Shown here one piece after another: positions 46,729 through 49,293 of a DNA stretch of 64,000 bases. Position 1 is the stretch's first letter, and each line of letters opens with the position of its first letter. Made by a program: the position numbers and the translations under genes. Under the pieces are notes generated by a model. It worked only from the letters and a program-made list of their open reading frames with translations, was not told the origin of the DNA and made no database searches. Source of the DNA: an uncultured Bacteroidales bacterium (GTDB lineage Bacteria > Bacteroidota > Bacteroidia > Bacteroidales > P3); the NCBI GenBank assembly GCA_900317285.1, contig ONGA01000010.1, positions 86,732 to 150,731 on the forward strand. Reading direction: 5' to 3'.

Positions 46729-46736
46729 TATTTTTG
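46729..46736 (+). promoter_or_regulatory. Promoter -7 box for the DHH-FKBP to pyrI gene run
   Basis: TATTTTTG followed by CA, as in the priA promoter. It puts the transcript start near 46743 and excludes the TTG at 46745 as a useful start, favouring ATG 46763 or 46781. Confidence 0.65.
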
Positions 46737-46762: not shown

Positions 46763-48328
46763 ATGCAATCCATTGATTATATGAATATTGAAGCGGTACA
46801 TACAATTCGTTTGGTTGACGGATGGAGTCCCGAGCGCCTGCGCGCCCTGTTGAATGGGTCGCGGAAGGTGGTGTTGGTGGCTCACACCAATGCCGACGGC
46901 GACGCCGTGGGTTCGGTGACGGGTATGTATGCGCTGCTGAGGGAAGCGTTAGGTCGCGAGGTCACGTTGACGCCGATGCTTCCGGACGGTTGCCCCGAGG
47001 ATTTGGCGTGGCTGCCGAACACAAGTTATATCCTGAACGGCCAGAAGGAACCCGAGCGTTGCCGCGAGGCTATTGCGGAGGCTGACGTTGTGATGGGTAT
47101 GGACCTGAACGGATTCGACCGCACGGGTGTGCTGGCGGAGTGGTTGTGGGGCAGCGCTGCGAAGAAGGTGCTGCTGGACCACCACATCGGTCCCGACCGC
47201 GAGCGGTTCGACCTAGTGGTGTCCGACCCCGACATTTCGTCGACGTGCGAACTGGTGTATTGGACGATGCTTGCCACCTACGGCAAGGATGTTTTCACGC
47301 CCGAGGCGGCGACGAGCCTTTTCACGGGCCTGTGCACCGACACGGGCACCTTTGCCTACAGCAACCGTCAGGCGAGCCTGTATCTGGCGGCGGCGGAGTT
47401 GTCGCAGATGGGCATCGACCCGATGGATATCAACCGTAAGATCAAGAATGTGTTCACCCCCAACCGCCTGAAGTTTTTCGGCCACGCGATGAGCGAACTG
47501 CTGACGGTGTACGACCGCGAGGGTGTGGCGCTGATGGTGATAAGGCGTGAGGATATGGAGCGCTACGGGGTGGAGAGCCACGAGTTGACGGGGTTGGTGA
47601 ACGAGGTGATGAAGCTGCGCGACACCGACTGTGCCATTCTGGTGCGCGAGGAGGAGGGTAAGGTGAGGTTGTCGCTGCGCTCGAAGTGCCACACGGATGT
47701 GAACCGCCTGGCGGGCGAACTTTTCGGTGGCGGCGGTCACGAGAGGGCTGCCGGTGCCACGTCGATGCTGAGCCTGAAAGAGACGGTGGAGGTGGTGAAG
47801 CGCAAGCTGCGCCTGCTGACGCTGGTGCTGCCGTTGGCGCTGACGCTGGCTTCGTGCCACGATGTGCCAGTGGTGGATGTGGCGAAGCCGAAGGGCGACA
47901 CGCTGAAGGAGAATATGATGAATGCCAACCGCTATATTGCCCACAGCGAGGAGACTCAGATTGATTCCTACGTGCAACGGCGTGGCTGGACGATGGAGAA
48001 GCTCTCAGGCGGGGTGCGTGTGATGGAGACGGAGCGGAAGTCCGGCGGAAAGGCAATAAACTACGAAGACACAGTCACAATGCGCTACAGTGTGGAAGCC
48101 ATCAACGGCACTCCTGTCTACAGTGATGTGGAGGAGACCATTGTGGCGGGACGCATGCAGCCGAATGCGGGACTGGATGCAGCGTTGCGGACCCTGAAGG
48201 AGGGCAGCAAGGCCCGGGTGATTGTCCCCTCGCACCAGGCTTACGGTGTGGCGGGTGACGGCAACAGGGTGAAGAGCCGCATGATTCTGGTCTACAACCT
48301 GGAAGTGGAGAGGGTGATTAAAAACTAA
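46763..48328 (+). CDS. DHH phosphoesterase (NrnA-like) fused in frame to an FKBP lipoprotein
   Basis: Single frame of 521 codons. The first 345 or so are a complete DHH/DHHA1 phosphoesterase: TNADGDAVGS, VLLDHHIG, GLCTDTGTF and the DHHA1 motif FGGGGHERAAG. NrnA enzymes degrade nanoRNA or pAp in the cytoplasm. With no stop, the frame then enters a lipoprotein signal (KRKLRLLTLVLPLALTLASC; Cys coded near 47855) and a GldI-like FKBP domain (about 400-520). Cytoplasmic and exported halves cannot easily work as one chain. Internal starts ATG 47765, GTG 47792 or GTG 47795 would give a free lipoprotein. It may be two in-frame overlapping genes or a true fusion. The first start is ATG 46763 or 46781. 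Confidence 0.85.
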   Translation: MQSIDYMNIEAVHTIRLVDGWSPERLRALLNGSRKVVLVAHTNADGDAVGSVTGMYALLREALGREVTLTPMLPDGCPEDLAWLPNTSYILNGQKEPERCREAIAEADVVMGMDLNGFDRTGVLAEWLWGSAAKKVLLDHHIGPDRERFDLVVSDPDISSTCELVYWTMLATYGKDVFTPEAATSLFTGLCTDTGTFAYSNRQASLYLAAAELSQMGIDPMDINRKIKNVFTPNRLKFFGHAMSELLTVYDREGVALMVIRREDMERYGVESHELTGLVNEVMKLRDTDCAILVREEEGKVRLSLRSKCHTDVNRLAGELFGGGGHERAAGATSMLSLKETVEVVKRKLRLLTLVLPLALTLASCHDVPVVDVAKPKGDTLKENMMNANRYIAHSEETQIDSYVQRRGWTMEKLSGGVRVMETERKSGGKAINYEDTVTMRYSVEAINGTPVYSDVEETIVAGRMQPNAGLDAALRTLKEGSKARVIVPSHQAYGVAGDGNRVKSRMILVYNLEVERVIKN

Positions 48329-48378: not shown

Positions 48379-49293
48379 ATGAAAAAAGGTTTCAAGATGG
48401 TCGCCCTTGCGGCCGCAACGACAATGCTTTTCGCCTGCAACGGAGGCGAGATGGCCGGTTTCAAAACCACCGACAACGGTTTGTATTACAAGTTCGAGAA
48501 GCAGAACAAGGACGGTCAGCAGGTGCAGGAGGGTGATGTGCTGGTGGGTGAGATGACTGTGCGCTTCGACACGATGGAACTTTTCTCCACCAAGGGTGAG
48601 GCCACGCGCATCGCGCAGGCTGCTCCCAGCTTCAACGGTGGCCTCTACGAGGGTCTCATCATGATGCATGTGGGCGATATCGCCACCTTCGCCATCGAGG
48701 CCGACTCGCTTGCCAAGTATGTGCAGCCGAACCAGATGCCCCAGGGTTACGAGCCCGGCAAGGGAATGAAGATTTTCTACGAGATCAACCTGCAGGACAT
48801 TGTGACCAAGGAAGACCTCGCCGCCGAGCAGGCTAATTTCATGCAGGAAGTGCAGAAGCGTCAGGCCGAGGAGCCTGAGGAGATTGCCGCCTATGTGAAG
48901 GAGAACGGCATCACCGCCAAACCCAATGCCGACGGTGTGTATATCATCGTGAAGAAGAAAGGCACGGGTGCAAAGGTCGCCACCGGCAAAGAAGTCTCTG
49001 TGAACTACACCGGCCGCCTGCTCGACGGCACGATGTTCGACACCAGCGTCGAGGGCGATGCCCGCAGCGGCGAGATTTACAACAAGGACCGCAAGTATGA
49101 GCCCATGACTTATGTCGTGGGACGCGACCGCCTGATTCCCGGCTGGGAGCAGGGTGTGATGGGTCAGCCCGCCGGTACCGTTCTTCAGCTTGTGATTCCC
49201 TCAGCCCAGGCCTACGGTCCCCGTGGTGCAGGCAACATGATCCCCCCCTACTCTCCCCTTGTGTTCGACATCGAGATTGTCAGCGTAAAATAA
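48379..49293 (+). CDS. FKBP-type isomerase lipoprotein with two FKBP-like domains
   Basis: The 304-residue lipoprotein has lipobox LFAC (Cys about 20). A first, degenerate FKBP-like domain spans about 30-140, with GLYEGLIMMHVGD. A complete C-terminal domain (about 185-304) shows VNYTGRLLDGTMFDTS, LIPGWEQGVMG and AYGPRGAGNMIPPYSPLVFDIEI. It lies behind the DHH-FKBP frame and 11 bp before adk. It acts in envelope protein folding. Confidence 0.9.
   Translation: MKKGFKMVALAAATTMLFACNGGEMAGFKTTDNGLYYKFEKQNKDGQQVQEGDVLVGEMTVRFDTMELFSTKGEATRIAQAAPSFNGGLYEGLIMMHVGDIATFAIEADSLAKYVQPNQMPQGYEPGKGMKIFYEINLQDIVTKEDLAAEQANFMQEVQKRQAEEPEEIAAYVKENGITAKPNADGVYIIVKKKGTGAKVATGKEVSVNYTGRLLDGTMFDTSVEGDARSGEIYNKDRKYEPMTYVVGRDRLIPGWEQGVMGQPAGTVLQLVIPSAQAYGPRGAGNMIPPYSPLVFDIEIVSVK

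Follow-up and report, generated by a model that had tools for sequence, protein, structure and literature searches.

Two proteins, a cytoplasmic enzyme and an exported lipoprotein, are encoded in a single uninterrupted reading frame in the genome of an uncultured Bacteroidales bacterium, and the question raised by this locus is how a lipoprotein signal peptide can function behind a cytoplasmic enzyme. The window analysed is the whole stretch of 64,000 nucleotides from contig ONGA01000010.1, and positions are numbered from its first letter. The frame at 46763-48328 is free of stops over 521 aa and closes with the stop at 48328. Translation could also begin farther upstream, at ATG 46763 or TTG 46745, without meeting a stop; ATG 46781 is the likely start of the fused ORF, since its product would begin MNIEA..., in register with the initial Met of relatives (MRIEC, MKIEC, MTIET). 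Upstream, positions 46729-46736 read TATTTTTG, a candidate match to the Bacteroides promoter element TANNTTTG. The first-pass annotation had described a complete DHH/DHHA1 phosphoesterase joined in frame to a lipoprotein signal, a lipobox and a GldI-like FKBP domain, and the Pfam profiles and the open frame agree with this description. It had added that the arrangement makes little sense as a normal fusion. The fusion proved real, and the missing sense is supplied if the product is read as a polyprotein that would be cut at the internal signal peptide. The features are listed in Table 1.

Table 1. Features of the fused ORF and its surroundings (window positions)
Feature	Position	Strand	Basis or remark
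Fused ORF: NrnA-like phosphoesterase, internal lipoprotein signal peptide, FKBP domain	46781..48328	+	515 aa from ATG 46781
DHH domain with motifs HTNADGDA, DHH, TDTG	46865..47329	+	Pfam PF01368, 51.6 bits (cut-off 28.1); residues 35-189
DHHA1 domain with GGGGH motif	47561..47797	+	Pfam PF02272, 38 bits (cut-off 25.9); residues 267-345
In-frame ATG 47765, GTG 47786, GTG 47792, GTG 47795	47765..47797	+	Judged not to be start sites; contexts like internal codons
Last phosphoesterase helix, VEVVKRKLR; proposed n-region	47786..47812	+	Place and charge as in the C-terminal helix of unfused enzymes
Hydrophobic h-region, LLTLVLPLALT	47813..47845	+	Sequence
Lipobox LASC; proposed Lgt/LspA site before Cys codon 47855-47857 (residue 365)	47846..47857	+	Motif; putative cleavage
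FKBP_C domain	48056..48307	+	Pfam PF00254, 36.9 bits (cut-off 21.1); residues 432-515
Second FKBP lipoprotein gene, downstream, 304 aa, lipobox-like start	48379..49293	+	Pfam PF00254, 87.9 bits

The enzyme part was assigned to the DHH/DHHA1 (NrnA-like) phosphoesterases by its domains, which exceed the Pfam cut-offs, and by its catalytic motifs; the NrnA equivalog model NF053633 gave 78.8 bits, below its cut-off of 350. The closest solved relatives are the Bacteroides fragilis enzymes 4py9 and 3w5w, found by the best sequence match (E 2e-50) and also by the best fold match (Foldseek against 3w5w, E-value 1.2e-29, with low TM-scores of 0.38 by query and 0.57 by target). The FKBP part likewise stayed under the cut-offs of the GldI model TIGR03516 (57 against 157.6 bits, residues 354-516) and of the BamJ model NF053689 (36.3 against 100 bits; the downstream gene, at 75.4, is also below). 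Its sequence has GLDAAL where FKBPs usually carry a GWD motif, which could mean weak isomerase activity and a role closer to that of a chaperone. The fusion is single-copy in the source genome, in which two further matches are FKBP only. Among the forward-strand frames of more than 200 aa in the window, an internal lipobox of this kind was found only in the fused ORF; the sole other match in frames of this size lies on the antisense strand of the fused ORF's own stretch.

Between DHHA1 and FKBP the chain reads as a basic segment (VKRKLR), a hydrophobic region and a lipobox. Judged by motif, this is the basic n-region, hydrophobic region and lipobox Cys of a bacterial lipoprotein; its place is internal (residues about 345-365 of 521) instead of N-terminal. 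The lipobox Cys comes 40, 41 or 44 residues after the GGH motif in each of the 17 fused loci described below. In these loci the enzyme's last helix is retained, letter for letter as VKxxLGL in 12 of the 17, with the hydrophobic region attached directly to it, and the lipoprotein's own start and n-region are unrecognisable in most. Since unfused enzymes end with the same, equally basic helix, it was ready-made as an n-region. Net helix charge gave no sign of adaptation to this duty (2.00 in fused and 1.81 in unfused loci, p 0.38). Acidic residues in the helix are fewer in fused loci (1/17 against 10/27, p 0.03), but adaptation by their loss is not claimed, since independent tree pairs gave a median p of 0.375. 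The lipobox Cys is preceded by Ser or Ala in every fused locus. Position -3 varies (Leu, Met, Phe, Ile, Ala, Cys or Gly), and 5 of the 17 lipoboxes have Cys or Gly at this position or fit weakly (CVSC, CISC, CMSC, GTAC), with Ala at -3 in some.

The layout was sought in related genomes, as the first-pass annotation had proposed. The family search covered 190 genomes, with a match in 181, and the junction was read in 110 of the 190: 88 of 120 from the same genus, the source genome included, and 22 of 70 from other genera. Loci were picked mainly down the match ranking, so that the 80 unread genomes mostly had weaker matches or none. A stop-free fusion was present in 17 of the 88 genomes read in the genus and in none of the 22 from other genera, giving 17 fused and 93 unfused among the 110. 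In other families of the order the count was 0/20 (20 genomes from 20 families, of 119 genomes searched), and the FKBP match there starts 32-148 bases past the phosphoesterase stop. In the phylum sample both matches lie side by side, by coordinates, in 7 of 23 genomes of the same class (G327, G331, G347, G351, G359, G374 and G390). Unfused phosphoesterase and FKBP genes often overlap by a few bases. Because the genes are adjacent and separate in other genera, other families and the class sample, comparison across these genomes makes two neighbouring genes the old state. Two proteins that are separate in relatives thus share one frame here, with a signal peptide at the joint, as in a polyprotein.

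Apparent fusions outside the genus at G211, G229 and G251, suggested by open-frame lengths, were discarded, each being two frames parted by stops. The open-frame length column is useless for calling fusions, since the value for L042 comprises both frames and the stop between them. A phosphoesterase from another class of the phylum (G403:C29:107132-108085) is given an open frame of 855 aa and is perhaps another fusion; the same column can join frames across a stop. At L114 (G188) the first FKBP gene is seemingly absent, and the sole FKBP match falls within a frame of 306 aa that resembles the second gene's. At L096 (G126) a stop lies near the start of the phosphoesterase match, and the frame is either broken or begins later.

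The fused and split states were then placed on trees. On the phosphoesterase tree (80 rows) the fused/split label needs 7 changes, at least 4 of them on well-supported branches; on a tree from both proteins with the junction left out (47 rows) it again needs 7, at least 5 of them supported. The 47-row tree rejects all 17 fused rows as a single clade (p-AU 2.6e-8). According to these trees the fused loci do not all descend from a single fusion; the state changed at least 7 times, a count that does not separate gains from losses. The places of L028 and L055 are unsure because both are flagged as long branches. Split rows L015, L016, L020 and L032, and also L029 and L030, nest among fused rows and from this position may have re-split. 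Each of L015, L016, L020 and L032 has a stop after the final helix of the enzyme and, 10-12 bases on, a new start rich in A, as if a fusion had been undone.

Both halves of the fused gene are kept by selection, as judged from their sequences. Of the 17 fused loci, 16 include the DHH part (L054 is cut by its contig) and all 16 have its motifs intact; dN/dS of the DHH and FKBP parts was 0.04-0.59 in the 8 pairs tried. Values for the hydrophobic part are noisy because it is short (one was above 1 and one undefined). LspA and Lgt genes were found in the source genome.

The first-pass annotation had proposed that in-frame starts at ATG 47765, GTG 47792 and GTG 47795 could yield a second product. 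These codons are present, together with a further GTG at 47786. An ATG, GTG or TTG falls 15-32 codons before the Cys in 15 of the 17 fused loci, and codon usage alone predicts 14.2 (P 0.44). The other two are without a usable candidate. L022 has no such codon from 48 to 7 codons before the Cys: it holds only a TTG six residues before it, and farther upstream the nearest start is an ATG within DHHA1, at a distance of 48 residues from the Cys. In L021 the sole candidate is an ATG that precedes the Cys by 12 residues and is followed by no basic residue.

Bacteroidetes are described (PMC6847099) as lacking Shine-Dalgarno sequences, with initiation tuned by mRNA structure and by upstream bases such as A at -3; start contexts were compared on this basis. 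In the wider comparison 81 unfused ATG starts, after exclusion of 12 of 93 unfused rows for which no ATG was picked, had a median A+T of 0.65 and a folding energy of -3.9 kcal/mol. The corresponding values were 0.40 and -15.8 kcal/mol for 29 candidates in fused genes, and 0.35 and -17.0 kcal/mol for 393 other internal start codons; none of four measures separated the last two groups (p 0.16 to 0.96). Within the clade, loci were ranked by A+T against internal codons of the same gene; the median percentile was 1.00 in the 27 unfused loci and 0.54 in the 15 fused ones (p 4e-7). These medians include one wrong unfused row (L036, with a wrong Cys and a start 1101 bases upstream), redone for the start-context matrix. 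The matrix was trained on 130 starts, taken from the phosphoesterase and from the FKBP gene downstream. It gave the 27 unfused lipoprotein starts of the clade, with their A-rich, open context, a median score of 14.0, and none of them fell below the 98th percentile of internal codons. In the 15 fused loci that offer a candidate the median was -9.6, within the best-of-n null (-13.5 to -7.4), which takes the best of as many random internal codons; taken singly, their best candidates are slightly above internal codons (p 0.006) and not above best-of-n. At the source locus the best candidate, GTG 47786, lies at the 85th percentile, and that of L017 reaches the 91st. For independent tree pairs, an average of 4.6 of 5 contrasts linked fusion with a lost start context; the p of 0.0625 is the smallest that 5 pairs allow.

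A gene with two products, the long fusion and a lipoprotein started at an in-frame GTG or ATG (47765-47795), is in our judgement unlikely. It can draw on the start codons in the right range, although their number is what codon usage yields, and on the Val column V1, in which GTG is used in 12 of 14 cases (57% elsewhere; 9/16 in the next column) and which is occupied by ATG in L028; the GTG excess could hint at start use. It can also draw on L054 (G086), whose candidate GTG (score 2.8, 98th percentile) alone among fused loci has an A-rich, open context; this may be a fusion young enough to retain its start site. The remaining 14 of the 15 fused loci with any candidate resemble ordinary internal codons, L021 and L022 offer nothing usable, and re-initiation has no stop to feed on. 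Start-codon availability, Val codon choice, A and A+T content, folding energy, accessibility and the context matrix thus gave no support for an internal start, barring the V1 excess and L054, which is the exception to the rule that the second protein lacks a separate start. With candidates at codon-usage expectation and the upstream context of unfused relatives gone, the proposed second product was not borne out. As there is neither a recognisable internal start nor a stop, the lipoprotein should derive from the long chain.

That chain might persist uncut, as a bitopic protein with the hydrophobic stretch as permanent anchor, the phosphoesterase inside and the FKBP part in the periplasm. A single chain is the simplest reading of the ORF, and the internal hydrophobic segment could indeed put the long form in the inner membrane, as had been suggested. 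In the chain model (mean pLDDT 75.8) a predicted helix (332-357) passes from the enzyme into this stretch with low confidence there; the model is weak at the junction (pLDDT <50 at 348-382) and was for that reason not counted as evidence. We nevertheless regard a permanently uncut protein as quite improbable: all 17 fused loci preserve the Cys and a small residue in front of it, and the fused and split states interchange, which together suggest the same mature lipoprotein in both. An artificial joining of two normal genes by assembly or sequencing error, conceivable for a window from a 28-contig draft genome, is hardly credible. The fusion recurs in 17 genomes, which refutes a sequencing error, and the context of the split gene's start has gone too. 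A second collection of genome contigs gave 7 loci (uncultured Bacteroidales or Bacteroidetes), of which 5 are fused in frame, some evidently from the same genomes.

We consider it probable, from the comparison of sequences, that the fused ORF is a bacterial polyprotein gene which arose by in-frame merger of neighbouring genes and whose single chain is cut at the internal signal peptide. One chain would be translated from the phosphoesterase start, and its NrnA-like DHH/DHHA1 part would fold in the cytoplasm. The enzyme's last basic helix would serve as the n-region of the internal lipoprotein signal peptide, which would insert at SecYEG with its N-terminus inside. The FKBP part would then be exported, Lgt would lipidate the Cys at 47855-47857, LspA would cut before it and the FKBP lipoprotein would pass to the envelope. 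The signal peptide would stay on the phosphoesterase as a short membrane tail at its C-terminus, barring removal by another protease. Because the lipobox is kept, the chain should still be matured by Lgt and LspA. That this maturation is the processing step of the polyprotein, giving enzyme and FKBP lipoprotein in a fixed ratio and leaving a membrane-tailed phosphoesterase, with several gains and perhaps losses within the genus, seems to us somewhat favoured. Points against the polyprotein reading are the V1 and L054 observations, the slight edge of the best fused candidates when taken singly, the five lipoboxes that deviate or fit weakly, the p of no less than 0.0625 on independent pairs, and the chance that a signal peptide inserts poorly when a large folded domain precedes it.

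If cleavage takes place in this way, LspA would be the processing protease of a polyprotein in which a large cytoplasmic domain lies folded ahead of the cut; its substrate range would be widened, and an RNA- or nucleotide-degrading enzyme would be tied to the membrane. The fused and split sister genes are natural test material. Signal-peptide prediction from N-termini alone misses exported lipoproteins of this kind.

The enzyme part shares its domain order and motifs with the NrnA/nanoRNase DHH-DHHA1 proteins of B. fragilis (3w5w, 4py9) and differs from them in being joined to a lipoprotein. The lipoprotein part has a lipobox followed by FKBP_C, as have the FKBP lipoproteins GldI and BamJ of Bacteroidota, and is here fused to an enzyme. 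BamJ is identified as Bt3612, a lipoprotein of the Bacteroides BAM complex (PMC12578637); membership of the present FKBP part in this complex is not claimed. An LspA-cut polyprotein or a phosphoesterase-FKBP gene pair was absent from the top-ranked matches of a literature search that left most subscription journals aside. To our knowledge, one chain cut at a buried export signal is familiar from viruses and unusual in bacteria. In Bradyrhizobium, fbcH encodes a cytochrome b/c1 polyprotein, which signal peptidase cleaves at a signal peptide inside the chain. There, too, a single bacterial ORF codes for two proteins separated by such a signal; the partners are both membrane proteins of one complex and the protease is signal peptidase I, whereas here a cytoplasmic enzyme precedes a lipoprotein and LspA is the proposed protease. 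In layout the locus resembles the hepatitis C virus core-E1 junction, where (PMC5402940) the signal peptide of the exported protein that follows forms the end of a cytoplasmic protein and keeps the latter anchored once cleavage has occurred; that system is viral and uses a eukaryotic signal peptidase, and the likeness is one of analogy only.
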